From Bartonella birtlesii IBS 325 (lineage in GTDB: Bacteria; Pseudomonadota; Alphaproteobacteria; Rhizobiales; Rhizobiaceae): DNA of 15,163 nucleotides. The position numbers and the translations under genes were made by a program. Positions 1,574-14,915 of the stretch are shown piece by piece. The stretch is taken from the NCBI RefSeq assembly GCF_000273375.1, contig NZ_CM001557.1, positions 249,876-265,038 on the forward strand, written 5' to 3'. The stretch's first letter is position 1, and every line of letters starts with the position of its first letter. The notes below the pieces were generated by a model, which worked only from the letters and a program-made list of their open reading frames with translations, had not been told where the DNA came from and did not search any database.

Positions 1574-1705
1574 CTAATCAATATTTATATCCGTAAATGC
1601 GAATTTACCATCTTTGATATAAACAATATCGGGATGATATTTTCTCCCTTTAGTTTCAAACATGATTGATTCATCACTCACCACAGAGAGGCTTACTCTC
1701 TTCAT
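1574..1705 (-). CDS. Possible 43-residue ORF or gene fragment
   Basis: The frame runs from ATG at 1705 to TAG at 1574. It encodes a polar protein starting MKRVSLSVVSDES and ending FAFTDINID. Its composition (mixed charge, alternating hydrophobics near the end) looks more like real protein than most short frames nearby. The ribosome binding site is poor, with only A-rich sequence upstream, so it may be the tail of a lost larger gene. Its stop lies nine bases from the 13-bp minisatellite. I do not recognise a family. Confidence 0.25.
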   Translation of the reverse strand: MKRVSLSVVSDESIMFETKGRKYHPDIVYIKDGKFAFTDINID

Positions 1706-1944
1706 TCTTGTTCTTTTTTCTCAATAAATTTTCCATGAAAAGCGCATTTTTCATGGCACAAATTCGGATCTCTGACTCTCAAATGTCGATCATTCTTTAT
1801 TTTTCATGGATAATTTCTCAGCCACCCATTCAAATACAGCGGAACTCAATTTCTCTGTCATTGAACAAAAAAGCCAAGATCACAAGAGTGAAAACCATAA
1901 AAAAAGGACATGATAGAGATAATAGCACTTGGGTTCTAGAGCGC

Positions 1945-2190
1945 TTACATCCTAACAGATCTCTCTTTCAACTCCGATACTTGTTCTAAAGACTGCATTT
2001 TTTTCAATTTACGCTCTCGGATACTGCGGAATACCCAAAGGATAGGCAAAGGTGCAAAAAGGCAGACCCAAATCAAAACCGGTAACAGAAAAATCACGTG
2101 CCCCATACTCTCTTATTTCCCCTGCTCTACCAACTCTTTCAAAGGCTTTGCAAAAGCCGAAAATTTTGAAGCTATCACAATAAAAAACAT
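1945..2190 (-). pseudogene. Decayed C-module membrane protein
   Basis: Read on the minus strand from ATG 2190, the frame gives 25 residues, an in-frame TAA at 2113-2115, then 55 more residues to the TAA at 1945. The second part has the C-module ending: a helix with FLLPVLIWVCLFAPLPILW, then a basic R-rich stretch (IRERKLKKM) and an acidic coil. This matches FLLPVV...RRLKLKIEKLEE in the intact gene at 3589-3969. The N-terminal FKEAM.FS.KDY part is not recognisable. It is the leftmost identifiable remnant of the array. Confidence 0.55.
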
Positions 2191-2603
2191 ATGCAATACG
2201 GTAAGAAAATTTTACCACAGCAATTTATCACTCTGCCATGATAACATCTTTAATTTCTTGCCTTACTTTAATTTCTTATCTTGAAAACCAAGCATTTTTT
2301 CTCAAATGCCCAATTCCTTTCCTTCATATTCCCCCCCTTATTGTTTATTTTGCTCTAAAGTTCCCTTTGATTGCATGAAATCCCCACTTTATCTCCATAA
2401 ACTTGCATTCACCATCCTCTATAAAAAAATATCATAGCGATAATTTTTCCTATCAACCTCACACATCACCTCCTCTTCACAGACAATGAAGTCCTATTTC
2501 TTTAGTTGTTGTTTTTTATTTCAACGAATTTTTGATAGGAAACCCTCTTGCTCTTGTACACCAATGGATCAACAGCTTTTAAAATATTGCAGCTTCTAAA
2601 ATA
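2191..2603. other. Non-coding, partly duplicated stretch
   Basis: No intact gene. The part at about 2330-2560 resembles 3980-4210, for example CCCCTTATTGTTTATTTTGC against CCCTTTATTATTCATTTTGC. In both places this stretch lies between a D-type pseudogene and a C-type gene, which supports an old block duplication. Confidence 0.45.
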
Positions 2604-3006
2604 TTAATGGCCAATCCCTTTATCTTCTGAAAACAAATCCACTGCAATCTGTTCAGATAAATCATCATTTAATTGCTGAGTCTTCGCCACTTTTTGCACA
2701 ACAGCATATTCAAGGTGAATTTTTCACCAGATAAATTGTTGCAATATCAAAATTTTTGATGTTTGCCCCTTTAATATTGACATCAAAGTGTTTTACTAAA
2801 AGCCAATGGGCTTTTCTTCTGGAAAGCTCTTTCTAATAAGACGGTAAACCTTCCACCTCACCACGCCAAGCAAGAACTAAAAAGAGGCAGCAAAACATTA
2901 AGAAACCAACCAAGCCTATCGCACTTACAAAAAAGAACCTATCTCTTTTCCAAGATGACAAAGCTGAATGAAGAATGAAGCCTTTTCGAAGATCGACAGC
3001 TTCCAT
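2604..3006 (-). pseudogene. D-type membrane protein, broken (copy 1)
   Basis: From ATG 3006 the frame encodes 57 residues: a polar start MEAVDLRKGF, a basic WKRDR, and one strong membrane helix (about residues 25-47). It meets a TAG at 2833-2835. The same frame then continues for 40 residues, including VNIKGANIKNFDIATIYLV, to a TGA at 2710-2712. A one-base shift opens 35 further coding-like residues (EYAVVQKVAKTQQLNDD... to GIGH) ending at TAA 2604. The parts make a plausible protein of about 132 residues, with one cytoplasmic-side helix and a soluble C-terminal domain. I cannot name the family. A second decayed copy at 4225-4593 shares the start, the helix and the GANI segment, so this was a real gene. 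Confidence 0.6.
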
Positions 3007-3355
3007 AACCTATTTTAAAATACCATTAAGCACCCGCTTTAAGCATCCCACATACATCTGTGATCCAAAAATCCAGTCTTTATGATTTCACAATACATAT
3101 GCAAACTCGGAAAATTTTTCACATGATAAGGATTAAGAGTCTCATAAACCGCAACAGAATGCTACTTGTGACCGCAAATCTATAATCAAAGCGAGAGAAA
3201 ATTGCCGAATAAGACAAGAAATTACACTTCGCGCTTTGGGAAACAATGGAGCATCAAATCATCACCTTTTTTCATCAATTTTCACATTCCACCCCAGAAC
3301 CTTAACGCTGTTGCATTTTCCATAGTGAAAATTTCATCATCATCGCCATAAAGTC
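3007..3355. other. Stretch without a supported gene, downstream of an A-type gene
   Basis: At the equivalent position after other A-type genes lies a decayed C module, but here I cannot see the FKEAM/KDY or LEE signatures in any frame. It may be too far decayed. No RNA gene or repeat is visible. Confidence 0.4.
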
Positions 3356-3592
3356 TTATGGCTGCTTTTGTGCACATCTTTGCTGCTGCATTGCTTGTTC
3401 TCGGCGCAGCTGCTGAAGTCCTATATCATTTTCTTGCAGCACCCATTCTAGCTCTTTTTCCACTTGGAAATACATTTTTATCCGTTTCAAGACAGAATAA
3501 TAAAAAGCCAAAACAAACAGAATAACGAATATAAAAATAATTGACGAAAACAGAAGCACATAAATGATTGGCACCATAAAATAATTGTTCAT
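3356..3592 (-). CDS. A-type small membrane protein, unknown function
   Basis: This 78-residue protein has one hydrophobic segment (about residues 5-31), then YYSVLKRIKMYFQVEKELEW. That is the A-module signature: paired tyrosines, a KR pair, an aromatic, and a coil start. The last 35 residues are Gln- and Arg-rich (QQLRREQAMQQQR) and likely form a coiled coil. The basic side after the helix predicts a cytoplasmic tail. Its ATG overlaps the stop of the upstream C gene in a 4-base ATGA arrangement, and its GGGGGAAA binding site lies inside that gene's last codons, so the two are probably translationally coupled. It differs from the other A genes in having a longer tail. The family is unrecognised. 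Confidence 0.65.
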   Translation of the reverse strand: MNNYFMVPIIYVLLFSSIIFIFVILFVLAFYYSVLKRIKMYFQVEKELEWVLQENDIGLQQLRREQAMQQQRCAQKQP

Positions 3593-3969
3593 TTTTCCCC
3601 CTCACACTCTTGAGAGAGCGCATTTCGCAAATGGTTGATCTTTTCTCCTATAAAAATTGCTTCTTCTAATTTCTCGATCTTCAGTTTCAATCGACGTGTT
3701 AAGATGATACGAAGCATAAACACCACCGGAAGCAAAAAAAGTGCATAGATCATTATGACCTTTATCATCATAAAAATCATAAAAATAATCACATGCGTAA
3801 TACTATACCCCCCTGTCTGCAACGATTCCTCAAATCTTAGTATTCTAAAAATCCTGTCGCACAAAACAATGAAGACAGCAATGAGGAAGCAAACTTTATA
3901 ATTTTTCTCTGAAAGAAATGCTTTCTGAAATGAAAAAGATCGTGCCCTTTTATACGTCTCTTGCTCCAA
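3589..3969 (-). CDS. C-type two-helix membrane protein, unknown function
   Basis: This 126-residue protein begins with a TTG codon behind a GGGGGAAA binding site. SFSFQKAFLSEKNYKVCF at about residues 11-28 is the C-module entry motif, close to FKEAM.FS.KDY in its paralogues. The first helix is about 25-43, then a loop with many Met and Ile residues runs into a second helix (about 62-90, ending YALFLLPVVFMLRIIL). A basic stretch TRRLKLKIEKLEEA starts the coiled tail. It lacks the long polar N-terminus of the other C genes. It is the first gene of a C-A pair with the gene at 3356-3592. The function is unknown. Membership of the family is clear from order and motif spacing, while the TTG start is less certain. 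Confidence 0.65.
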   Translation of the reverse strand: MEQETYKRARSFSFQKAFLSEKNYKVCFLIAVFIVLCDRIFRILRFEESLQTGGYSITHVIIFMIFMMIKVIMIYALFLLPVVFMLRIILTRRLKLKIEKLEEAIFIGEKINHLRNALSQECEGEK

Positions 3970-4224
3970 TGCCTAATTTCCCCCTTTATTATTCATTTTG
4001 CTTCAAATTACCTCTTGTTCCATTTTGGATAAAGCAGCTTGTATTTTGATAAAATTCCACTTCGCTTCTTCTCTGAAGAAAAAACGCCATCATATCTTTT
4101 TTTATCGTGCCTTAAACATCGCCATCACTGACAAAAAACTCTTTATCCTCATTCTTATCTCATCTGCTCAAGTGATTTTTGATGAGAAGCCCTTTTTCTA
4201 TTACACATCTCTGCCTTTTTAAAC

Positions 4225-4593
4225 TATAAAATGCTAAGAACCATTTACAGAGATCATTTCGCAACAATCTATTCAAGCAAAGTAAAGTTGCATTGTTTTG
4301 CTCCTTCTTAGATCAACGCCATGACACATTCACATGACACATTCACATGACACATTCAAACGCCATGACACATTCACATGACACATTCAAGAGAGATTAT
4401 TGATCTTCACATTGAAGAGATGAATATCAAAGATATTGGCACCAAAAATATTTACAACGAAGATTTTTGCATTGAAAATGCTTTCTTTCGACATATCCTT
4501 TGCTGAAAGATTGCAAATCAACATCACCAAGCCAAGCCAAACTAAACCAAGCAAAAGCAAAACCCTAAGCGAGAACTGCTAGCTTGACTCCAT
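4225..4593 (-). pseudogene. D-type membrane protein, broken (copy 2)
   Basis: From ATG 4593 the frame reads MESS, a TAG at 4579-4581, then a Leu-rich helix (RVLLLLGLVWLGLVMLI). Next comes a segment with VVNIFGANIFDI that parallels VNIKGANIKNFDI in copy 1, to a TGA at 4387-4389. Beyond this a 13-bp repeat (4320-4389) interrupts it. Sequence at 4225-4275 still resembles the 3' end of copy 1 at nucleotide level (AGATTG followed by T-rich, GAT-containing sequence). The charged stretch before the helix in copy 1 is missing. The position, between a decayed C half and a C gene, matches that of copy 1. Confidence 0.45.
4320..4389. repeat. Minisatellite, five copies of a 13-bp unit in two blocks
   Basis: CATGACACATTCA occurs exactly at 4320-4332, 4333-4345 and 4346-4358. 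Then AACGC follows, then exact copies at 4364-4376 and 4377-4389. AACGC also precedes the first copy (4315-4319), so the larger unit AACGC plus repeats has itself been duplicated. It sits inside the D-type pseudogene and would break its frame. Confidence 0.95.
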
Positions 4594-4776
4594 CCCATTC
4601 CCACATGTGATGCAAAAAATCATTTGCAAAACACACGAACAAACTTGGAAAAGAAATATAAAGGAGAACAATTCCCCCTTGAGGAAAAACCAAAACGAAA
4701 GCTATGGAAAAAACGCAAGCAAAATACCCTATTCCCCTCCTATCACACCTCCTATGGTGTGGGTGGTTTTGCTTGG

Positions 4777-5075
4777 CTAGATTTCTTCTTCAAGTTCCTA
4801 AATGATTTTTTGCAACTTACGCGTCACACTGCCACAAAAAAGAACACTACCAACAATCCACGCGAGTGGCTTTACAAGAAAAAAGAAAGGAAATTTTGTC
4901 TCTATATAATACGATATAATATAATATCGAAAAAAGACGGGTGGAAATGCCATCACAACCATGGAGATAAAGAAGATTCTTTTATAATCCTCCCTTGATT
5001 AAGCCCATGAATTCTTTCAAAGAAAGAGAAACGACTTTCTTCTCAAACACTGCATTCTGCTTTCTTTTATTTTTC
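4777..5075 (-). pseudogene. Decayed C half of a B-type gene
   Basis: Directly after the A-type gene ending at 5076, a shifted minus-strand frame reads KRKQNAVFEKKVVSLSLKEF. This aligns with KQKQNAAVDAKIRLLSFKES of the intact B gene at 5260-5817. Another shift gives EDYKRIFFISMVVMAF (the KDY motif and first helix). The frame continues through a Tyr-rich loop to a second helix with SVLFCGSVTRKLQKII, a stop, then ELEEEI and a stop at 4777. The module order and ends are those of the family. A + strand open frame of 124 residues over 4624-4998 is its antisense shadow. With the A gene it makes up one broken B gene. Confidence 0.65.
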
Positions 5076-5270
5076 TTATTTTGCACACCGCCCTAGCGCT
5101 ACATCACGCTCTTGCTGCACTTTTTTCAATTCTCTTTCAACTTTACAATACAGCCTGGCACGTTTGATAAACATATAATAAAGGATCAAAATTGGCACAT
5201 TAATTAACAAGGTCAAAATCATCCACAACAGTGTAGATAAAGCTGTAAATGCTATAAAACTACCGCTCAT
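5076..5270 (-). CDS. A-type small membrane protein, probably a B-gene stub
   Basis: This 64-residue protein has a hydrophobic segment at residues 4-33, then YYMFIKRARLYCKVERELKK, the clearest form of the A-module signature, and a short charged tail ending GRCAK. It is the one-to-one partner of the gene at 7571-7792 (MSGSFIAFTALS against MTSSFVAFLTLS). Its ATG lies 11 bases inside the end of the upstream B gene, whose last codons (GGKDER) supply the GGGGGAAAA binding site. The stop is followed in another frame by a decayed C module, so this is probably the surviving first half of a former B protein. Whether the stub is functional is unknown. Confidence 0.65.
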   Translation of the reverse strand: MSGSFIAFTALSTLLWMILTLLINVPILILYYMFIKRARLYCKVERELKKVQQERDVALGRCAK

Positions 5271-5817
5271 CTTTTCCCCCTATAGTATCCTGCATAGCGA
5301 GTGCTTTATCTCGTTGCACAATTGCTTCTTCCAATTGTTGGAGTGTTTTTCTCAATTTTCTACTCAATTTGACAAACAACACCGCAATAATAGGGCTCAA
5401 TATTATAACACAGCACCATGCGATCCCCAACAGCAGCATTATAAAGGAGCTTACATCATTCTCCCACCATTTCCATTTTGCTAAATTGAGGAAACTTTGT
5501 AAAACCACATAGAAAAAACAGAGGAAAAATATAATTTTAAACTCTTTTGGCCAAAACAGCATAGATTCTTTAAAAGAGAGCAGACGAATTTTTGCATCAA
5601 CTGCTGCATTCTGTTTCTGCTTTCCCCTCTTATCACTGCGTAAATGCTGCAATGCATCCTTTTCTTGCGTTAAGCTCTTTCGCAATTCTTGAGATACTTT
5701 ACAGTGCACTCTTAAATATTTGATCAAAAAGTAAGGAACCCTGACGACAATCATAAACATAAACATGCCTATGATGCTCAGCCCTAACAAACCTAAATAT
5801 TTCATAAAAATAGCCAC
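5260..5817 (-). CDS. B-type (A+C) three-helix membrane protein, unknown function
   Basis: This 185-residue protein starts with GTG, seven bases after AGGGG. Residues 5-32 form the first helix, followed by IKYLRVHCKVSQELRK (A signature). A charged, probably coiled linker (45-75) contains KQKQNAA. SFKESMLFWPKEFKIIFF (81-98) opens the C module, with helix two about 94-110. A Trp-rich loop follows (KWKWWEND), then helix three at about 124-149. KLSRKLRKTLQQLEEA and a charged tail end the protein. It is the paralogue of the gene at 7782-8303: both have LFWPKE, a W..DVS.FI loop and a similar C-terminal stretch. An A gene overlaps its end by 11 bases. The predicted topology puts the linker and tail in the cytoplasm. 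No known family is recognised. Confidence 0.75.
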   Translation of the reverse strand: MAIFMKYLGLLGLSIIGMFMFMIVVRVPYFLIKYLRVHCKVSQELRKSLTQEKDALQHLRSDKRGKQKQNAAVDAKIRLLSFKESMLFWPKEFKIIFFLCFFYVVLQSFLNLAKWKWWENDVSSFIMLLLGIAWCCVIILSPIIAVLFVKLSRKLRKTLQQLEEAIVQRDKALAMQDTIGGKDER

Positions 5818-5864
5818 TTTTTTTCCCCTATCTTATCGCGTGAAGATATTGATTTGCTTTTTCT

Positions 5865-6422
5865 TCAAGCAAATTTTTCCAATTTCTTTACGGTTTTTCT
5901 CACTCCATAATAGAGTATAGCGTGAAATATTAAAACCACCGGTAAAAGGCAGACAATATATTCCCAGCTCTGAATCCACAGTTGAAAGACAAAATCAATA
6001 ATTTTATAAAGAACAGGAAAATTCATTGAAAAATTCCAAAATAAAATTCCAACTCTTGAGTTAAGAGCCCCAAAAATCATTAAGAGCACATAAGGGAGCA
6101 ACATGATCAAAGCAACACAAAAGATTACTATAGAATCTCTTCTTGATAAAGCTAGAGATTCTTGAAAGGCAACAGAACTTAACTTTGTTCTAAGAGCTGA
6201 GTTTTGCGCACTGTTGTGTTTCTCATAACCGCCCAATTTTTGTCGTGAAACCTTTTTGAGTTTTCCAAACATGCCAAACAACAAGCCTGCACGCTTAACA
6301 AAAGAATAATAAACGTTAAAAACTGTCATAACAGTAAAAATTAAAATCATCAGAAATGCTAAGAAAACCATCGCACTTCCCACTATTGCCGACAGTATAC
6401 CCAATATTAAAAAAAGAGTCAC
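5865..6422 (-). CDS. B-type (A+C) membrane protein, unknown function
   Basis: This is a 185-residue protein with a GTG start behind AGGGGGCGAAA. Residues 3-38 are strongly hydrophobic, ending VYYSFVKRAGLLFG (A signature). A basic linker (54-80) carries KLKKVSRQK and QNSALR. VAFQESLALSRRDSIVIF at about 84-101 is a divergent C-module entry in which the KDY is replaced by RRDS. Helix two (100-118), a long loop, and helix three (152-170, ending LLPVVLIFHAILYY) follow, then VRKTVKKLEKFA at the very end. It is shorter at the C-terminus than the other B protein in this unit. Its paralogue at 8344-8900 is frameshifted. It lies 14 bases after the C gene and 47 before the next B gene, in one probable transcript. 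Confidence 0.75.
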   Translation of the reverse strand: MTLFLILGILSAIVGSAMVFLAFLMILIFTVMTVFNVYYSFVKRAGLLFGMFGKLKKVSRQKLGGYEKHNSAQNSALRTKLSSVAFQESLALSRRDSIVIFCVALIMLLPYVLLMIFGALNSRVGILFWNFSMNFPVLYKIIDFVFQLWIQSWEYIVCLLPVVLIFHAILYYGVRKTVKKLEKFA

Positions 6423-6436
6423 TTTCGCCCCCTATT

Positions 6437-6958
6437 TTATTCTGCTAAATGATTGTTATCTTGCAAATGCGGTGATCTTTCCCATTGCTGGATCATTTCT
6501 TTTAACTCACGCCTAAACACGGCGCAAAAGAGAAAAAAGAACGGGAAAAAAATAAAAAAATAAGAAAAGATAAAGAACGGTAAAAAACACATAAGAGCCA
6601 CAACGCTATTCCATCCAGCAGCAGCTATCAGTTCTCTAACATACTCTTGTATCATAGCACTCGTTGCAAAAACCTGCTTTCCAACAGTTTTCTGAGCGAG
6701 CGCTTGAAAAATTTTCTCAGTAAGTTCTCCAATTTGTTGCTTAGATGTATGAAAATATTCAAAAGGATTTATATAGGCTACAGCAATACCGAACACCAAT
6801 AAGATAAGAGCCATACAACAGATAACGACATAATCTTTTGCTGAAAAAGTCATCGCTTTTTTAAAGAAAAAAAGCTTCGATGCTTTATCAAATGCCCCTC
6901 GCGATGCAACAGCCGCTCCACTTTGGACAGGCCCGTGTTGTGGTTTATCTGTGGTCAT
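6437..6958 (-). CDS. C-type two-helix membrane protein, unknown function
   Basis: I place the start at ATG 6958, giving 173 residues, rather than the longer frame to 7042. A G-rich binding site (TTGGGGGGTTGGT) precedes this ATG, and the paralogues at 9427 and 11354 begin alike (MTTDKPQ, MTIENPQ, MTSDQQP). Residues 1-28 are polar and contain GAFDKASK, shared exactly with the 9427 gene. FFKKAMTFSAKDYVVICC at about 31-48 is the entry motif. Helix one is about 44-62. A loop of some 55 residues follows (with TEKIFQALAQKTVGK). A very aromatic second helix (about 118-147, FFIFFPFFFLF) leads into RRELKEMIQQWE. First gene of the block C-B-B-A. The function is unknown. Confidence 0.75.
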   Translation of the reverse strand: MTTDKPQHGPVQSGAAVASRGAFDKASKLFFFKKAMTFSAKDYVVICCMALILLVFGIAVAYINPFEYFHTSKQQIGELTEKIFQALAQKTVGKQVFATSAMIQEYVRELIAAAGWNSVVALMCFLPFFIFSYFFIFFPFFFLFCAVFRRELKEMIQQWERSPHLQDNNHLAE

Positions 6959-7048
6959 ACCAACCCCCCAACTTCTAAAATGTTTTACAGCACATAAATC
7001 AATGCAAAGAGGCCCTTTAAAACTTTTTTTACAATTATGCAAGCATTA

Positions 7049-7246
7049 TCATGCTCTGTCACATATTTTTATTTCTTTTCTCTGTAAAGAGACATATTTG
7101 CACCTTTGCGCATAGCACAAAAAACAGTATAAAAAATTGGCAGAGTCAATCACAATCCCGCGAAGCTCTACAATAAAAATCATAGGAAAGATATGCCATC
7201 CCTTTGCCCCATTCTGGGCATTATATTCTACATCGATAATTTTCAA
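7049..7246 (-). CDS. Possible divergent A-type membrane protein
   Basis: This 65-residue frame starts at TTG 7246, behind AGGGGTTTTCGAGA, which resembles the family's binding sites. After a polar start, a hydrophobic stretch (about residues 18-45) leads to LYCFLCYAQRCKYVSLQRKE. That loosely follows the A signature (tyrosine pair, basic pair, aromatic, coil). It lies 90 bases upstream of the C gene starting at 6958. The matching region in the other block (about 9490-9700) is clearly homologous DNA but has stops. The gene is either a real but fading A-type gene or a remnant that happens to be open. The TTG start and weak motif make me cautious. Confidence 0.35.
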   Translation of the reverse strand: MKIIDVEYNAQNGAKGWHIFPMIFIVELRGIVIDSANFLYCFLCYAQRCKYVSLQRKEIKICDRA

Positions 7247-7329
7247 TCTCGAAAACCCCTATGCCACCATTTTTATCAACCGCACTTTCTCCTCTGCTTA
7301 ATATACTTCTTTTTTCAATGCGAAATACT

Positions 7330-7560
7330 TATTACAACTCCCCCACCGCAATGCTGACCTGCAGCAAAATAACCGGAAAACAAGAGAAGAGCGCCGCCCA
7401 AAATTTACACCCACCACTCTCACACAGAGCCAGGAACTCTTATCCCCAACAAAGGTTTAGAGAAAATGATGAGCAAATAAAGCCACCATAACCATAAAAA
7501 GAGAAAATATTCTTGATAATTTTTTTGGCTAAAAACCAAACTTTTTTAAATAAAAAAACT
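7330..7560 (-). pseudogene. Decayed C half of a B-type gene
   Basis: Past the stop of the A gene at 7571, the minus strand reads FLFKKVWFLAKKIIKNIFSF, matching the entry motif and first helix of the C module (FKEAM.FS.KDY..IF). A Gly/Ser-rich run to a TAA follows, then WAALFSCFPVILLQVSI, which matches the second helix. The same decayed sequence is found at 10250-10480 with clear nucleotide identity over about 200 bases. A 76-residue + strand frame (7261-7491) is only its antisense and is not called. Confidence 0.55.
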
Positions 7561-7580
7561 AAGCCTCCTCTCACAGAGGA
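7553..7580 (-). terminator. Weak hairpin with T run at the end of an A-type gene
   Basis: On the minus strand TCCTCT and AGAGGA (75-80 and 66-71 of the 7500s) pair around a 3-base loop, followed by GGCTTAGTTTTTTT. The stem overlaps the stop codon at 7571. It is short, but it could end the right-hand block's transcript. Confidence 0.35.
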
Positions 7581-7792
7581 AGTTGATCTTGCTTCTCAGT
7601 TTTCGCAACGCTCTTCACCGTTGCCTGACGTACTTGCAGCAATTTTTTGTGTTGTTTATTGACTTTGCAATAGAGCCTAGCACGCTTAATAAACAGGTAA
7701 TAAATAATAAAAACTGGCACAATAACTAAAAAGCCAGCTATTGTTGAAGACAAAAAAGAGAGAGTTAAGAAGGCCACAAAGCTACTGGTCAT
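7571..7792 (-). CDS. A-type small membrane protein, probably a B-gene stub
   Basis: This 73-residue protein has a hydrophobic segment at residues 5-32, then YYLFIKRARLYCKVNKQHKK, nearly identical to the A signature of its partner at 5076-5270. A basic tail follows (KSVAKTEKQDQLPL). The ATG lies 11 bases inside the end of the upstream B gene, whose GRGEKDDQ-type ending provides AGGGGAGAAAA as binding site, the same arrangement as in the other block. The tail ends at a hairpin, and a decayed C module follows. The short form is therefore probably secondary, but its frame and start are intact, so it may still be made. Confidence 0.65.
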   Translation of the reverse strand: MTSSFVAFLTLSFLSSTIAGFLVIVPVFIIYYLFIKRARLYCKVNKQHKKLLQVRQATVKSVAKTEKQDQLPL

Positions 7793-8303
7793 CTTTTTCT
7801 CCCCTCACATCCTGTATAGGCAGAGCTTTATTTTGTTGCGGCATTTCTTCTTCCAGTTGCTGGATCATTTTTTTCAACATGCTCGTCAATTTTATGCAGA
7901 GCAGCCCAATGATTGGTGCGAAAAAAAGCAAACAGACCGATGTAAAATTAAACAACACAGTTATAAAAGCGCTCACATCACTTTTCCAGCCTACCAACTT
8001 TAGTGTAGAAAATACAGCATATAAAAGAGCAAGGATGAAAGAGATGAAAAAGATTCTTTTACATTCTTTTGGCCACAGAAACAGAGACTCCCACCACAAA
8101 AGAGAAGGAGCATTTTGCCCCATAACCTGCCGCTCACGAGAAAGAAAGGAAGAGGTCGCACTATTTTTTAATTCCTTCAGCACAGCAAAATATAATCTTG
8201 CCCGCTTGATAAAAAAGTAATGAAGACCAACGATAGTCATACAGAATAGAGCGGCCAGCATGAAGCGTCCTAGCAGACTACAATATTTTATTAAAAAAAG
8301 CAC
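7782..8303 (-). CDS. B-type (A+C) three-helix membrane protein, unknown function
   Basis: I choose GTG 8303 (173 residues) over a longer frame to 8330. AGGGGAAAA lies just before it, and the paralogue at 5865-6422 starts alike (GTG then CTTTTTTTAATA). Helix one is about 2-30. HYFFIKRARLYFAVLKELKN is the A signature, and a short linker ends MGQNAPS. LLWWESLFLWPKECKRIFFI (68-87) opens the C module, with the usual Lys-Glu instead of Lys-Asp-Tyr shared with its partner at 5260-5817. Helix two is about 83-100, helix three about 115-138, then KLTSMLKKMIQQLEEE and a charged end. An A gene overlaps its stop by 11 bases. Gene order and motif details make it the direct counterpart of the 5260-5817 gene. 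Confidence 0.75.
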   Translation of the reverse strand: MLFLIKYCSLLGRFMLAALFCMTIVGLHYFFIKRARLYFAVLKELKNSATSSFLSRERQVMGQNAPSLLWWESLFLWPKECKRIFFISFILALLYAVFSTLKLVGWKSDVSAFITVLFNFTSVCLLFFAPIIGLLCIKLTSMLKKMIQQLEEEMPQQNKALPIQDVRGEKDDQ

Positions 8304-8343
8304 TTTTCCCCTCTCACATTCTAAAACCAATTACGTTACCGTT

Positions 8344-8900
8344 TTAAGTGAAATTTTCCACTATCTTCACCATCTTTTTCACTCTCAAATGCAATTTAGC
8401 ATGGAACAGCAAAAATAGAGGGGAAAAAAACGCTACACATCCCCAAATAATATAGAGAAAAAAACCATTCACTATAAAAAAGTAAACGACCAAGAGCCAC
8501 TTTGCATCAATTGTTGCATACTGGCTTTATTTTTTGCCACCTCTGCCGTCATGACAAAAAATGAAACGATGAAGGGCATAACGAGTACAAAAAATACTAT
8601 AAAAGAGAATTTAAAGACTCTTTTATAATCTTTTTTTGAAAACATCAGAGCTCCTTTAAACGAAGCGAGATAAGCTTGCCTATCAAAAACTGGCTCCTCT
8701 TCTCCCCTCTTATGAGACAACACTTTGTCTACTTTGATGATTTCTAGTTTTTCATGCGTTTCAAAAAGCACTATTTGACGCTTAAAAGCAGAGTAATAAA
8801 CCATAACAATTGCTAAAATAGCAAAAAAACTTATCATGCTATAGACCACCATCATTGAGACAATAGTCAATTGTGCAGTCACCATTGCCAAAAAAGTCAC
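8344..8900 (-). pseudogene. B-type gene with a one-base frameshift
   Basis: From GTG 8900 (GGAGAGAAAA upstream) an open frame of 142 residues holds helix one, YYSAFKRQIVLFETHEKLE (A signature), a linker, and SFKGALMFSKKDYKRVFKF (C entry). After helix two it ends early at 8472. A neighbouring frame then carries on without a gap: VVYFFIVNGFFLYIIW, a helix FFSPLFLLF, KLHLRVKKMVKIVENFT and a stop at 8344, the expected ending. The full span is 557 bases, one short of the 558 of its partner at 5865-6422, which has the same ending (VRKTVKKLEKFA). A single-base deletion near 8500 explains it. The truncated 142-residue form might still be made. Confidence 0.7.
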
Positions 8901-8941
8901 TTTTCTCTCCTTCTCATATTCTATAAAGTCATCAGATCATA

Positions 8942-9427
8942 CTATTCTAGTGACTTTTCTCCTTGCTGAATCATGTCTTTTAATGCACCATGCAATATGA
9001 AATGAAAGACAAAAATGATTGGGAAAAGGATTTGAAAAGTTCCAAAAATCATTTGCGGAATAAGACATATAAAAGCCCAAACGCTCTCCCACGAAGCTGT
9101 ATTCCATAATTCTCTCTTATATATTTCATCCCATGCAATTTGTCCTAAGAACAAGCCTTTAAGATTTTCCAGGAACGTCCCATGAAAATTTTTATGGAGC
9201 ATTTCCATCAGCTGTTCTTCAGACAATCCATGAAAGAATTTCATAAAATTGCTATATACCACCACCACCACGATGCAAGAAATGCAAAAAACAATGACAT
9301 AATCTTTTATTGAGAAAATCATCGCTTCTTTAAAGGCAAAAAACTTCGATGCTTTATCAAATGCACCCTGCGACACAATGCCCACCCTATTCTGGATAGC
9401 TCCCTGTTGTGGGTTTTCTATGGTCAT
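8942..9427 (-). CDS. C-type two-helix membrane protein, unknown function
   Basis: I start at ATG 9427 (161 residues), preceded by TTTGGGGGTGCC, rather than at the open frame's limit of 9454. The paralogue at 6958 has the same start context. The polar N-terminus contains GAFDKASK, identical to that paralogue. AFKEAMIFSIKDYVIVFC (31-48) is the textbook form of the entry motif. Helix one is about 44-61. A loop of about 55 residues contains two Met/Leu-rich amphipathic stretches, and helix two is about 114-147 (FQILFPIIFVFHFIL). The end is KDMIQQGEKSLE. First gene of the right-hand C-B-B-A block. The next gene starts 41 bases on, so an operon is likely. Confidence 0.75.
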   Translation of the reverse strand: MTIENPQQGAIQNRVGIVSQGAFDKASKFFAFKEAMIFSIKDYVIVFCISCIVVVVVYSNFMKFFHGLSEEQLMEMLHKNFHGTFLENLKGLFLGQIAWDEIYKRELWNTASWESVWAFICLIPQMIFGTFQILFPIIFVFHFILHGALKDMIQQGEKSLE

Positions 9428-9489
9428 GGCACCCCCAAATTCTTTAACTACCAAACTTCTTAACTATTTGACAACATTCATCAATATGA

Positions 9490-9700
9490 GACGTTTCTTT
9501 AAAACTTTTTGAACGATTGCGCAAGTTCTCTGACATTTTTATCATGGTTCTTTTTTACTTCTTTTCTCTGTGAAGAAAGCCCCCTCGCACCTTTGCAACA
9601 ACACAAAACGCAAATTGGCAAAGTCAATCAAAGACCCACAAACCTCTACCACAAAAACCAGAGAAAAATGCGCTACTTTTTTCTCTCCATTCTATAAACT
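9490..9700 (-). pseudogene. Remnant matching the possible A-type gene at 7049-7246
   Basis: DNA here is clearly homologous to 7040-7246: for example TTAAAACTTTTT, TTCTTTTCTCTGT, GCACCTTTGC and GGCA(A/G)AGTCAATCA occur in the same order with similar spacing. The protein frame has stops, and only SQRKEVK-like and hydrophobic pieces remain. It marks the right edge of the duplicated block. A + strand frame here is not a gene. Confidence 0.45.
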
Positions 9701-9799
9701 GCCCTCTACCCTGATAATTCTCTATCTTAATCTTTTGTTATAGTGCCCAAAATTTGCCAGAGACTAAATGCTTCTTACAACTTGCCCACAAAATGCGCA

Positions 9800-10114
9800 C
9801 CCCTTAAGAAAATTGCTATAAAGAGCACCATTACCCCCTGCAAAAAGCACCGCCATAAAGAAATATATATCGCATAAGGCTACCGATATTAGAGCAAAGC
9901 CACGGTTCTTGCTTCATAGACGAGCAAAGCGCTCTATCCTATTCTTTAAGCCTTCTCTTTTCTCTCTCCATTCTTTTCCCCGTTCTTTCCCCCTACAATT
10001 TTTTCCGTGCAATTTTTTCCCCCACAAATGTTTTTCATAATGCAAGACAAGCAAACTCATGCCCCACACTTCATAGTCATGAACAGAGAATAAAATATCC
10101 TCTCTGCTTTTCAT
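9800..10114 (-). pseudogene. Decayed C-type gene
   Basis: From ATG 10114 the minus strand gives REDILFSVHDYEVWGMSLLV, which fits the C-module entry (FS.KDY) and the beginning of a helix. It then becomes a repetitive basic sequence (KERGKEWREKREG). A different frame at about 9860-9800 gives a helix-like GVMVLFIAIFLRGAHFVGKL in the position of helix two. The match is weak, and it rests mainly on the SVHDYEV motif and position. Confidence 0.35.
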
Positions 10115-10249
10115 ACAAAATCAAAACGCCTATGAGAAATATGAAACAACGCTTCACCTTTCCTATATCCCTATGTTATCGTTTTTTTTCAACGACCGCG
10201 CCTTTTTCTTCAATTGCGCAATGATAAATGATTATTGCAATTAACAATT

Positions 10250-10620
10250 AAAGAACCCACTACAATGCTGCCCTGCCGCAAAATAACCGGAAAATAATAG
10301 AAGGGCACAGCCAGGAACTCATAGCGACCACTCTCACACAGCGCCAGGAATTCTTACTCACAACAGCGGTTTAAAGAAAATGGTAAGCCAATAAAGCCAT
10401 CACAACCGTAAAAAGAACAAATATTCTTGATAATTTTCTTACAAAAAATCAAAACTTTTTCACACGAGAAAGCTGTACCCCGCCTCAGGCAGGAAATTCA
10501 TCTTGTTGCCTTTGTTTTTGCACCCCGCGCCAGCGCCACTTTTATATCCGCACCTATATCTACCCCTATATCTGCCCCTATATCCGTACCGTACATTTGC
10601 TCTAGCGCCACAACCTATCC
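10250..10620 (-). pseudogene. Decayed 3' part of a B-type gene after the A gene at 10746
   Basis: At 10480-10255 the minus strand matches the decayed C half at 7560-7340 at nucleotide level over most of its length (for example ATTCTTGATAATTTT and CACTCTCACACAG are shared). It keeps CKKIIKNICSFYG of the entry motif. Just upstream, one frame reads ALEQMYG, a GADI-type tetrapeptide repeat, and VALARGAKTKATR to a TGA. This resembles the tail ERDVALGRCAK of the A gene at 5076-5270. Together with 10746-10904 this was probably one B gene. Confidence 0.5.
10542..10589. repeat. Four copies of a 12-bp repeat
   Basis: TTATATCCGCAC, CTATATCTACCC, CTATATCTGCCC and CTATATCCGTAC lie head to tail. On the minus strand, in the frame of the decayed A tail, they encode G-x-D-I four times (GTDI, GADI, GVDI, GADI). 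The copies differ from each other, mostly at the third and second codon bases, so the expansion is not very recent. Confidence 0.85.
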
Positions 10621-10745
10621 TTTAAAAACGCATCTTTTAAAAGAAGGAATTTTTAACAAAAAAGCAGCAATAATTTTTGCGAAATTTTGCCTTTTGCTGC
10701 TTTTTCTTCTCACAATTTTATAAGAATCCCATTGCTATTCTCTTT

Positions 10746-10904
10746 TTAACGCCTCTCGTTGAGTTCCTTGTCCATTTTGAGATATACTCTAATACGTTTA
10801 ACAAAAAAGTAATAAATTCCTATAATAAGCATGCTGTTTAATACAGCAATGATGATAAGACCGACAAGCGCCAAAAGACCGAATAATTTTGTAATAAGAA
10901 ACAT
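10746..10904 (-). CDS. A-type small membrane protein (52 residues)
   Basis: The start is ATG 10904, directly after AGGGGGAAGAA, the family's binding site. Residues 3-30 are hydrophobic. Residues 31-48 read YYFFVKRIRVYLKMDKEL, an excellent A signature. The protein stops after NERR, making it the shortest A gene. It starts nine bases after the C gene 10914-11354 ends, so the two probably form a coupled pair like 3589-3969 with 3356-3592. The DNA beyond the stop holds a decayed tail and C module, so this too looks like a B-gene stub. It is short, but the motif, start and spacing support it well. Confidence 0.65.
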   Translation of the reverse strand: MFLITKLFGLLALVGLIIIAVLNSMLIIGIYYFFVKRIRVYLKMDKELNERR

Positions 10905-10913
10905 TTCTTCCCC

Positions 10914-11354
10914 CTATTTTGTTTGCGCAGTACCTGATTTGTTTTGCTGTTGAGATGCTTTTTTTTCTAATTTTCCAAGCATTTTTTTCAATCTACGATC
11001 CAATATGTAATGTAAAATCAACACGACAGGTAAAAAGATAACCAATACTCCCCAGAGGAAAATTGGCAGAACAAGAATATAGTCAAAAAAGCCATTTGTC
11101 TCACCGAAAATTCCACCAGCAAATAATCCTAAGAAAAACCCTGGCAGATAGTGGATACGAAAAACCCCTAAAATCAACATAACAAGAGCGATGCAGAAGA
11201 TTATTCTATAATCTTTCATTGTAAGCATCATAGCTTCTTTAAAAGAAAAAAGCTGAGATCCTTTTGCAAAAGTTGACTGTGGGGCAGACTTTGCATTTGC
11301 CTGCTTTTGAAAAAACTCTGATTGTGGTTCATTAGGTTGTTGATCGCTTGTCAT
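10914..11354 (-). CDS. C-type two-helix membrane protein, unknown function
   Basis: I start at ATG 11354 (146 residues), preceded by TGGGGAATGTCAGA. The open frame runs to 11459, but the shorter start matches the MT.(D/E).P beginnings of the 6958 and 9427 genes. The first 33 residues are polar and Gln-rich. LFSFKEAMMLTMKDYRIIFC (35-54) is the entry motif. Helix one is about 50-66, a short Gly-rich loop follows (residues 67-90, much shorter than in the other C genes), and helix two is about 93-117 (IFLPVVLILHYIL). DRRLKKMLGKLEKKASQQQ forms a basic coiled tail. Most upstream gene of the whole minus-strand array, so a promoter may lie in 11355-11700. I could not identify one confidently. Confidence 0.75.
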   Translation of the reverse strand: MTSDQQPNEPQSEFFQKQANAKSAPQSTFAKGSQLFSFKEAMMLTMKDYRIIFCIALVMLILGVFRIHYLPGFFLGLFAGGIFGETNGFFDYILVLPIFLWGVLVIFLPVVLILHYILDRRLKKMLGKLEKKASQQQNKSGTAQTK

Positions 11355-12682
11355 TCTGACATTCCCCATTTTCTCATTTTTGCACGAGCCCCCTGAAGCA
11401 TATGCCCCATGAAACATCTGCTTAAGATGCGCCCTGCCGTTCCCCTCATGCATCAACATGTATCACGCACTAATATGCATGAAGAAACGCTTAAACACCA
11501 TTCTAGAGCACCCATTGCAAAACCAAAAAACCATATAAAGAACACTACAGCTTTTCTATTTTGATGAACGCACAATTACCAAGGCATCTTATCGCTTTAA
11601 CTGGAAACGTCTATAGCAGTCTCAAGACAAATTTTCAATCCCCCTTCTAAAAAAAACTATCTGCTTCAAAATGGCATACACAATCCTGCCACCAACCGTT
11701 TTTGAAGAAAAAATAATGTCTTTCAAAGAACAAAAGCAAAAGGAAATGCAAACAACCCAAACAAGCAGCATGATAGCCGGTACTCTCATCAAACGGGCAA
11801 AACACTCTTAGTTAAGAAGATCAATTTTGAGAAAACAGCAAAAATGGAATAGAGCAAAAATTTTTTATACTCTATAAAGGATGAACATAAAAGCAAAAAC
11901 AGGGGAAAAGAAAATAAAACAACGCGATAATGTTATCACAGCTTTTGTTATTCATAGTTTATTATCAACATATTATCAATATTTATTTGAAAATATCAGT
12001 CATATTATGATATTATTAAGAGGGAATAAATTTTATTTTTCGCAGATCTGTTCTGTTCAATAGATAAAAAATTTCCTCTAAAAAGGATAAAAATATATTT
12101 AACAACATTCTATGTATCAGGCATTCTTGTTTTGCGCCCACCGCTGCTACATCTTTGTTCTGCTCCCACATCTGGCACAAGAGTTTCCAAAGCAAAAGCG
12201 AAAAGAGAGCAGAGTTTTAAATTTTTGCCAAACCTTCTCAAACAGGGAGACAAAGAAAACACTTCATAAAAACACAAAACAACATTTCCCATAAAAAGCA
12301 TTCCCTCTCATGCTTTTTTGTTTAAAGCCCCTTCTATAAGGGATAGCCCAAAAAGTCAGGGAAAAACCATAAAGAGCATTGTGGTTTTTCATTCACATTT
12401 CAAATTTCTTTTCAACTTTTAGCACAGATTGAAAAGCCTGTAACGAGCAAATAATCGCTATAAACGATCGTCAACGACTTACCACTCAAGGGCATTTTCA
12501 CTTTTAAAATATTACTCTTAACCTGAGAAAAAAAGTAAACAAAGACAATTTTAATGCTTGTTTTTATCAGCAACCATTTTCTATCGCCCATAGCGTTTAC
12601 CCCATAGCATCTATTTCAAGAGTTTTTTGTAGCACTTTTCTTCTTCAAACAGATAGTTTTTTCAATTCAAACGGTAAAGTTC
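11355..12682. other. 1.3-kb stretch without a convincing gene
   Basis: This is the divergent intergenic region between the minus-strand array and the + strand gene at 12683, so promoters for both should lie here. A 60-residue + strand frame at 11881-12063 has a weak AAAGG site one base from its ATG and no recognisable features, and I do not call it. Frames at 12110-12301 are short on both strands. An 8-bp stem with flanking A and T tracts (12362-12369 with 12382-12389) could be a weak bidirectional terminator. Confidence 0.45.
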
Positions 12683-13234
12683 ATGAAAATACATAAAAAA
12701 TGCAACAGACTGAAAACAACAAAAAAAGGAGCAGAACAAAATGGCGACATTTCCCACACCCAAAAACCGTGTACCTCTCCTTCTCAACACAGCATTGAAA
12801 TGCGGGCAAAACATTTTGGTTTGACGATAGAAGAAGCTAAAAATCCACTTGCCAGTTCCTATATTGGACGCCTTTGTTTGCTTGGCTATAAACAGAACGC
12901 ATTGGGCATCAGCAAAGAGCAATATGAAACGGCACAACGCTATCTACAAATCAGAAACGATTATTTATGTGCCAAAGGTTTGCCCCATGGCTATTATGAT
13001 GATTTTACGCACACACCGGATGAAAAAGCACAAAAGCAATGGGTTCAAAGAACAACGCAGCACTATGAAGATATGCAAAAAGTTATCAAAAAAGCACAAC
13101 AGCAGCATAGCCAACATAACTTTTATGCCGCACTACAATATCTTGTGGTAGATGATCAACCGCTCTCCTACCTTGTCTGCCCATTACGTATTATTCTGAA
13201 TGCTCTTCATCAACATTTTACAAACCAAACGTAA
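12683..13234 (+). CDS. Phage-like hypothetical protein, possibly frameshifted near its start
   Basis: The open frame encodes up to 183 residues, with no membrane helix or signal peptide. From about residue 37 it looks well conserved in style: SIEMRAKHFGLTIEEAKNPL, then YIGRLCLLGYKQNALGISKEQYETAQRYLQIRND. Its RA..FG, a P-L-A run, a GRL segment and IS.EQYE.(A/G)..Y recall short uncharacterised proteins carried near terminase genes in alphaproteobacterial prophages. This is from memory and not a named family. The C-terminal half is Gln/His-rich and helical. The N-terminus is doubtful: the ATG at 12683 has no good binding site, while AAAGGAG lies well placed before ATG 12741, which is in another frame (MATFPTPKNR). 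A frameshift between 12741 and 12790 is plausible; ATG 12800 is an in-frame alternative. Confidence 0.6.
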   Translation: MKIHKKCNRLKTTKKGAEQNGDISHTQKPCTSPSQHSIEMRAKHFGLTIEEAKNPLASSYIGRLCLLGYKQNALGISKEQYETAQRYLQIRNDYLCAKGLPHGYYDDFTHTPDEKAQKQWVQRTTQHYEDMQKVIKKAQQQHSQHNFYAALQYLVVDDQPLSYLVCPLRIILNALHQHFTNQT

Positions 13235-13940: not shown

Positions 13941-14915
13941 ATGAAACCACCAAATCAAAAAAACGCTGATCCTCGTTCATCAACAATGCAAGAAGATGAG
14001 AGCACTGATAAAGCATTCGCCTTGCAACCATACTTGCAATCATACTTGCAATCATACTTGCAACCATACTTGCAACCATACTTGCAACCCAGTCATGAAA
14101 TCCACTCAATCATGGAAAATTGTGAGATATTACTGCCAACTTAGAGCGTGATATTGCCGATAGCAGCTGAATTAAAGCTGATTATGTAAAGACAAATCTT
14201 CAACTGATGCCAGCTCTTGTAGAGAAAGCAAATCAAAAATATCCAAACATGAATCTTAAAGGCACAACGCCATCTCATGATTTCACCCTACTCATAAAAG
14301 AGGATATTGCCAATAAAGTTCAATCTTCCACATTTATCATTAACATGAAAAGAGAGGGACATCCATTTTGCCGCCATTAACCACCAAACCATTGCTCATT
14401 AAACATGTCTGATATTTTTTGAACCTACAACATTCAATAATATGAAACCAGCAATGCTAGCATTAAAAATGCAAAAGGTTGTTTCATTTCATCAATTGCC
14501 TCATTTTCACTTTCCCATGGCAGAAATGGATATTCAGCACAACTTTTCTGAATATGGTCTATTTAATGGTCTATTTAATTGAGCACTTGCCAAACAGCTC
14601 CATACCAAAGCAGATCACCGAACAAGAATGCACAAGGATAATATAACAGTCTCTCATGCGAACCAGAAGCGCCTTTATCTGCTGAAAAATTGGCCCGGTA
14701 TCTGCCAGCGAATTTTTATAAACACACAAAGGAGAAAATGGCATGAAGCATATACCAACCATACCCAAAAGCTGAGCATCACATCGTCAACAAAAAAGGC
14801 GAAACTCTCATGAAGAGATTTGAGAAAGACGGGAGTGACAGCAGAAGAAAAGCCTCTCTCTGTTTCACAACATTGCAAAAGGGTCCCTGAATATAAATCT
14901 GTCCCGATATTATAA
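13941..14915 (+). pseudogene. yopJ: YopJ-family acetyltransferase effector, pseudogene
   Basis: YopJ proteins are secreted effectors that acetylate host kinases using a His-Glu-Cys catalytic triad. Reading three frames here reconstructs the family along its length: NLERDIADSS then a stop where YopJ has Trp; VKTNLQLMPALVEKANQKYP; SSTFIINMKREG; a frameshift at the catalytic His (G-H-HFAAI if one base at about 14370 is removed); LIFFEPTTFNNMKPAMLAL with the catalytic Glu at 14421; QLPHFHFPMAEMDIQ; and FSEYGLF, where Tyr (14553-14555) stands in the place of the catalytic Cys in SECGIF. ALAKQLHTKADH, HKDNIT, LARYLPANFYKHTKEK, IVNKKGETLMKRFEKD and PLSVSQHCKRVPEYKS follow, ending at TAA 14915. The ATG at 13941 has a GGGAG site. 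There are at least two in-frame stops and several frameshifts, so it is certainly dead. The alignment is from memory of YopJ. Confidence 0.85.
14021..14090 (+). repeat. 12-bp repeat encoding PYLQ/SYLQ in the yopJ-like N-terminus
   Basis: CTTGCAACCATA and CTTGCAATCATA alternate through five full copies, then a partial sixth (CTTGCAACCC). The unit is in frame with the start at 13941 and gives the tetrapeptides PYLQ and SYLQ. It lies in the N-terminal region where secretion signals of such effectors are expected, upstream of the catalytic domain. Confidence 0.9.

Follow-up and report, generated by a model that had tools for sequence, protein, structure and literature searches.

We identified, in a 15,163-nt stretch of the Bartonella birtlesii IBS 325 genome (positions 249,876-265,038 of a single contig of 1.83 Mb; hereafter the window), an array of small minus-strand genes built from two modules, A and C. 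These genes are arranged as C-A units and, in sets of three staggered units, as the operon C1/A1C2/A2C3/A3 (slashes separate genes). The array lies near an origin of run-off replication (ROR), and in relatives the A module is fused to DUF6990 (PF22499), a domain that also occurs directly after FHA/CdiA toxin ends. Judged from sequence, we tentatively propose, at somewhat less than an even chance, that the array is a locus of polyimmunity type whose products are anchored in the membrane and which the gene transfer agent spreads.

In the proposed unit, C would be a two-helix inner-membrane protein and A its one-helix partner with a basic helical tail, the tail being most likely cytoplasmic. The two proteins may form a complex, and three staggered C-A pairs would make up the operon. 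In relatives, some units have an A tail that carries DUF6990 together with a truncated toxin-like core. A-DUF6990 would tether an immunity or decoy domain to the membrane through which contact-delivered toxins pass, and could neutralise them there.

Extent and organisation of the array

Profiles of the A and C modules were seeded from the window genes and then run on the window frames. Both modules were recovered in minus-strand frames from 1948 to 11462, and shuffled frames gave no A or C profile match. Strong A matches are located at 3377-3586, 5082-5264, 5611-5820, 6204-6395, 7580-7786, 8115-8306, 8691-8882 and 10749-10898. Strong C matches are located at 3637-3954, 5302-5598, 5868-6191, 6452-6889, 7824-8120, 8945-9358 and 10938-11267, and partial C matches at 8347-8523, 8475-8684, 4801-4998 and 1957-2112. 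The open reading frame (ORF) at 9914-10114 was left out of the gene count because no profile matched it at E<1. The window thus contains 11 intact minus-strand A or C genes, one broken gene and remnants. The first-pass annotation, made from the window alone, had described at least nine intact or nearly intact genes sharing two modules, alone or fused as A+C, at 1945-11354. The gene number and the modules, which align among the genes and occur in both forms, were borne out; the array does lie there, although with its remnants it spans a slightly larger region, about 1577-11459. That first reading had no place for the DUF6990 remnants, which lie at 1577-1803 and, as weak matches, at 2363-3362 (in collinear order) and 4158-4223.

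Ordered frames were read in 41 locus-strands, with A or C frames in 36 loci from 31 genomes. When frames with DUF6990 only are skipped, a gene starting with A directly follows a gene ending with C in 171 of 175 cases, as compared with a mean of 106 and a maximum of 121 in 500 shuffles. With partial modules scored as present, the string C/AC/AC/A occurs 26 times, in 22 of the 41 locus-strands and in 22 genomes (mean 0.87 and maximum 4 in 2000 shuffles). At 70% of 150 C-to-A junctions, the start codon is located no more than 20 bases from the stop codon, a proportion obtained with the nearest start, which favours small gaps. Because of this order rule, the recurrent string and the close junctions, we take C followed by A as the elementary unit. 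An AC gene would then be a fusion across two neighbouring units, made of A from the first and C from the second. The CA fusion genes, of which there are 24 frames in relatives only, would be fusions within a single unit. The expectation that A and C genes belong together thus agrees with the gene order, the junctions and the existence of both fusion orders. The earlier picture of a plain tandem array, with A+C as the fused form of the pair, gave way to conserved operons with position-specific paralogues, in which it is the C+A fusion that reproduces the pair.

The window holds two copies of the operon, at 5076-7042 and 7571-9454, plus C-A pairs. Matching genes of the two copies are 36-50% identical, and the broken gene shows 28% identity over 93 columns. 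In a FastTree tree of 141 C modules, built on few columns and with many forks open, operon position required 11 label changes as compared with 91.8 after shuffling, and locus of origin required 126. The corresponding tree of 144 A modules, of the same limited resolution, gave 13, 93.9 and 128 changes. These trees suggest that operon positions are orthologous across species, each largely forming its own lineage, and a separate lineage per position argues for fixed roles.

The median ratio of nonsynonymous to synonymous substitution rates (dN/dS) was 0.33 for A, 0.41 for C, 0.56 for AC, 0.42 for CA and 0.28 for A-DUF6990 genes. All medians are taken over reciprocal best pairs with an identity of 60% or more, which are not independent of one another; no more than 150 were tried in each class. 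The medians were 0.13 and 0.10 for the flanking 183-aa gene and lysozyme gene, whose median dS is higher than that of the array genes. The array genes are constrained yet fast-evolving relative to these two flanking genes, and the stretch between the C helices is variable.

DUF6990 and its toxin context in relatives

Relatives have 20 frames in which A is fused to DUF6990, and all 20 directly follow a C-ending frame (shuffled mean 12.3, maximum 17). Off-array DUF6990 frames are 848-878 residues long, and each of three that were scanned contains four copies of the domain. We fetched four off-array loci (L064, L065, L066 and L076) out of the many more that exist. In three of these four (L064, L065 and L066), the four-domain gene is located directly after an FHA/CdiA C-terminal or toxin-end frame, that is, in the position of a CdiI gene directly 3′ of a CdiA toxin end. 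The PT-VENN pre-toxin domain is present in the L064 and L065 frames, SUKH immunity genes lie nearby in L065 and L066, and the upstream frame of L066 has 118 residues and no Pfam match. In L076, a SUKH gene and a frame with more DUF6990 copies precede the DUF6990 gene.

The last 75 residues of the A-DUF6990 proteins were made into a profile, which was run against 19,087 frames and matched the toxin ends of these three loci (L064, L065 and L066), with E values of 4.7e-4, 4.8e-3 and, at noise level, 0.23; most other matches were DUF6990 pieces in arrays. The matched part of the tail contains what we take to be a PD...(D/E)xK-like core, and in one frame the RE_TdeIII restriction-endonuclease family of Pfam matched at this core below threshold (E 0.003). 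Because A-DUF6990 ends right after the core, its tail looks like a truncated toxin piece and not a nuclease. DUF6990 was found in 2 of 398 genomes of the phylum, both outside the genus, and our literature search found no paper naming it. We regard DUF6990 as a candidate CdiI and polyimmunity-protein family. Among the fusions, the A-DUF6990 frame at L049:10508-12298 (597 residues) has a long EQPVGALRDA-like repeat between the anchor and the domain.

At the genome level, an FHA/CdiA query matched 24 of 71 genomes of the genus, all of them within the 42 that carry C (hypergeometric 7e-8); the overlap depends on phylogeny as well, and we do not treat it as proof.

Location beside the ROR origin and distribution

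To the left of the window lie a YqaJ exonuclease gene, a DUF1376 gene and a Toprim/DnaB-like helicase gene, which are genes of the kind reported for the ROR region (PMC3610622, PMC2697382). The helicase gene ends ~5 kb left of the array, which lies 5-15 kb from it. In B. grahamii, the peak of run-off replication is located at or near such a helicase, and the adjoining region has been described as mostly non-coding and variable in size (PMC2697382, 2009). The distance from the helicase to dsbB ranges from 14.5 to 103 kb (median 27.8, n=22) in genomes with C and from 2.1 to 17.1 kb (median 2.5, n=15) in genomes without C, 10 of these 15 falling at 2.1-3.1 kb. These distances are for genes on one contig, with split contigs, record-start spans and G025 (weak C, 2.4 kb) excluded. 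The frequency of transfer by the gene transfer agent depends on the distance to the ROR, according to a review (PMC6899734), so the A and C genes would be expected among the most transferred.

At E<=1e-5, 42 of the 71 genomes searched in the genus have C; in two of these there is just one match, and it is weak. Where the identity of the dsbB neighbour is at least 72%, C is present in 41 of 42 genomes, G061 being the one without it; below 72%, it is present in 1 of 29 (G025, weak). The A1 query matched 1 of 397 genomes of the order, the window's own, and a first search matched 19 of 61 genomes, all from the same genus. Protein searches returned 6, 39 and 50 relatives, and the rows with a source name were Bartonella. 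These relatives are labelled hypothetical or uncharacterised, except for one UniRef label, 'ABC transmembrane type-1'. In what was searched, the A/C family thus appears restricted to Bartonella, a result that the first-pass annotation had named, together with the lack of a known domain, as one that would support novelty.

C-A pairs also occur away from the ROR, as a single pair at one shared site beside a gpmA-like gene in five genomes, and once more beside recA/alaS-like genes (gene names assigned by eye). At the shared site (L089, L090, L091, L092 and L093, about 7-9 kb), the pair stands behind a gene for a ~200-residue exported-looking coiled-coil protein. Other observations concern the ROR-side loci. 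In L067 (genome G070), the array beside the helicase is mostly decayed, and the stretch read retains just one A frame and one C frame at full length. In L030, the DUF1376 gene just before the helicase (6693-8006) carries a run of TDKASIGAQ-like repeats. Within the array span of L039 (9741-14111, plus strand), there are three similar frames of about 315-324 residues (LENLPASLEQLN-like).

Family status and predicted topology

No match above the curated cut-off was obtained for nine A/C proteins in Pfam or for eight in NCBIfam, and eight proteins gave only weak PHROG matches (best E 0.005); among the four short A genes, the scans included one as a separate protein, but not those at 5076, 7571 and 10746. 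PADLOC matched none of seven proteins, five of them A/C proteins of the window, and a PDB sequence search gave nothing below E 0.1. Two AlphaFold2 models are helical and of moderate confidence (predicted local distance difference test, pLDDT, 65.6 and 66.3; predicted template modelling score, pTM, 0.37 and 0.34). Foldseek matched neither model at E<=0.001; given this and the moderate model confidence, we claim no fold. The earlier statement that no named family with this design is known is supported by these scans, and the absence of a known domain holds for the intact window genes but not for relatives, in which A is fused to DUF6990.

Two candidate identities were considered and rejected. 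A PspB-like match in NCBIfam (E 0.006) covers one helix and tail and is far below the cut-off. As to a viral origin, one A2C3 query, searched against phage records, plasmids and viral contigs, matched nothing. Against known holin or spanin profiles, eight A/C proteins gave one Rz-like spanin match, at E 0.053.

Hydropathy predicts one helix for A, two for C and three for AC, with net basic stretches after A. In the C+A fusions, basic stretches flank an odd helix on both sides, which makes the predicted topology ambiguous. Homology between A and the last C helix was considered but not adopted: the A profile drifts onto C, but profile comparison of the two gave a probability of 43%. In the literature, from which most subscription papers fell outside our search, we recognised no description of the A/C family, and the parts covered of the ROR papers (PMC2697382, PMC3610622) do not describe these genes. 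The 2009 islands labelled 'Membrane proteins' (BgGI 3 and BgGI 6) could not be matched to the family. The vblA and vbmA products are described in part of PMC11466379 as lipoproteins and an oxidoreductase-like protein, and by description only we take A and C as different from them.

Comparison with known systems and alternative interpretations

The class of polyimmunity loci was described earlier (Zhang et al. 2012, PMC3482391). The A/C loci resemble them in having tandem diverged paralogues that vary in number between genomes, variable gene content and a link to an immunity-type domain, and in lacking an FHA/CdiA toxin gene. In the A/C loci read there is no FHA/CdiA-like frame, and in 30 ROR-side spans no frame of more than 372 residues lacks A, C or DUF6990, other toxin types not having been scanned. 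They differ in that A and C are predicted membrane proteins without a match to a known immunity family and form fixed C-A operons instead of interchangeable single genes. The membrane CdiI proteins of contact-dependent inhibition (CDI) ionophore toxins (PMC11630599), compared by description only, are likewise short, hydrophobic and fast-diverging, but A and C lack an adjacent CdiA gene in the loci read and occur as pairs and operons, not as a single gene. DUF6990 itself is fused to A in relatives and decayed in the window, and A and C lie outside the domain.

Several observations weigh against the immunity reading. A and C match no immunity family, and in the loci read none of the A or C genes has an FHA frame next to it. 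The DUF6990 part alone has an immunity-type context, and all of its links come from relatives; the window genome has no intact DUF6990 and is among the 18 genomes with C but without an FHA query match, other FHA types not having been searched. Moreover, paralogues that are fixed and specific to their operon position resemble the subunits of a complex more than they do interchangeable immunity genes. Immunity may nevertheless extend from the DUF6990 fusion to A and C genes without the domain, because A regularly pairs with C. It is also possible, although doubtful, that the C-A proteins form a modular inner-membrane platform of three staggered pairs, in which the A arm would bear exchangeable cytoplasmic cargo, either a short helix or an immunity domain with a toxin-core decoy.

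If the products were envelope or host-interaction factors diversified through gene transfer, as are other secretion-system loci that Bartonella carries near the origin, this would account for the presence of A and C in one part of the genus, for the variable stretch between the C helices and for a position in the ROR neighbourhood, where host-interaction loci are concentrated (PMC3610622, PMC6899734). The predicted membrane helices with basic tails and the fusion to an immunity-type domain speak against this explanation, which we consider unlikely. Quite unlikely, too, is an inner-membrane exclusion apparatus that blocks or filters phage or gene-transfer-agent DNA. Its attraction is that the array lies in a phage-derived region next to the ROR helicase, with a phage-type border gene and fast evolution under constraint, and that the origin position would couple the apparatus to the particles. 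Nevertheless, the A2C3 query found no phage match, PHROG matches were weak and PADLOC matches were absent; the ROR helicase was found in 57 of 71 genomes but C in 42 of 71, and DUF6990 with its toxin-like tail would be left unexplained.

We find it very improbable that these are holin/antiholin-like lysis genes releasing gene-transfer particles with the nearby phage lysozyme. The proteins are indeed small, with one to three helices and basic tails, and a phage lysozyme gene does lie beyond the right border, but on the opposite strand and about 4 kb from the array. A lysis cassette would not be expected to take the form of a conserved multi-gene operon with a DUF6990 fusion, some genomes have the ROR helicase without C, and G070 retains the single full-length A and C frames noted above. 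The least probable explanation is a selfish or neutral expansion that only frequent amplification and transfer at the origin would maintain and that is now decaying. Remnants and a broken gene in the window and the largely decayed array of G070 would fit it, whereas the median dN/dS is well under 1 in every class and operon order and position-specific paralogues are kept across 22 genomes.

Features of the window

The features are collected in Table 1, in which D profile denotes the profile made from DUF6990 sequences of relatives. D matches occur after the A gene at 3356-3592, clearly at 1577-1803 and weakly at 4158-4223, so two or three units of the window probably derive from pairs of C with A-DUF6990. 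Of the seven matches within 2363-3362, four have E values above 0.1, and none covers the middle of the domain. The window also contains tandem repeats of 12-13 bases, in about 5-6 copies each, at 1500-1565, 4320-4389 and 14021-14089.

Table 1. Array genes, remnants and border genes of the window, and DUF6990 genes of relatives
Feature	Position	Strand	Evidence
C module gene, 181 aa	10914-11459	minus	C profile E 6.2e-33
A module gene, 52 aa, 9 bases after C gene	10746-10904	minus	A profile E 1.7e-17
Operon copy 2 gene 1, C1, 170 aa	8942-9454	minus	C profile E 2.2e-31; 40% identity to 6437-7042
Operon copy 2 gene 2, A1C2, broken between pieces 8472-8900 and 8347-8526	8347-8900	minus	A and C profiles match pieces; 28% identity to 5865-6422, 93 columns
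Operon copy 2 gene 3, A2C3, 182 aa	7782-8330	minus	Profiles; 36% identity to 5260-5817; nearest tree rows C3 and A2
Operon copy 2 gene 4, A3, 73 aa, start overlaps end of preceding gene	7571-7792	minus	Profile; 50% identity to 5076-5270
Operon copy 1 gene 1, C1, 201 aa, long stretch between two helices	6437-7042	minus	C profile E 1.7e-29; C1 group in tree
Operon copy 1 gene 2, A1C2, 185 aa	5865-6422	minus	Profiles; C2 and A1 groups in trees
Operon copy 1 gene 3, A2C3, 185 aa	5260-5817	minus	Profiles; AlphaFold2 model pLDDT 65.6, helical
Operon copy 1 gene 4, A3, 64 aa, start overlaps end of preceding gene	5076-5270	minus	A profile E 4.3e-24
C remnant of decayed unit	4801-4998	minus	C profile E 1.3e-4
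Weak DUF6990 remnant, possibly end of decayed unit with C remnant 4801-4998	4158-4223	minus	D profile E 0.0029
C module gene, 126 aa	3589-3969	minus	C profile E 1.3e-26
A module gene, 78 aa, overlaps C gene end; probably former anchor of DUF6990 protein	3356-3592	minus	A profile E 4e-21; D remnants after
Decayed DUF6990 part of former A-DUF6990 gene	2363-3362	minus	Seven weak collinear D matches, model positions 7-47 and 190-298, best E 4.3e-4
C remnant, last half	1948-2112	minus	C profile E 2.7e-17 at 1957-2112
DUF6990 tail remnant	1577-1803	minus	D profile E 4.1e-10 and 1.1e-4
Left-border gene, 108 aa, recurrent in 20 loci	550-876	plus	Clustering of ORFs around arrays
Right-border phage-type gene, 183 aa, recurrent in 21 loci	12683-13234	plus	phrog_15385 E 1.3e-59; ORF clustering
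Four-domain DUF6990 genes (relatives)	L064:2367-4997, L065:2692-5235, L066:2061-4637		Follow FHA/CdiA toxin ends

Implications

Why gene transfer agents persist is a puzzle, since the giver cell dies, and the question is which genes near the site of highest transfer repay this cost. The Bartonella papers point to host-interaction genes (PMC3610622, PMC6899734). DUF6990 is proposed here as a CdiI family, and if the array is indeed an immunity locus, the gene transfer agent would spread protection between kin, a proposal that is testable.

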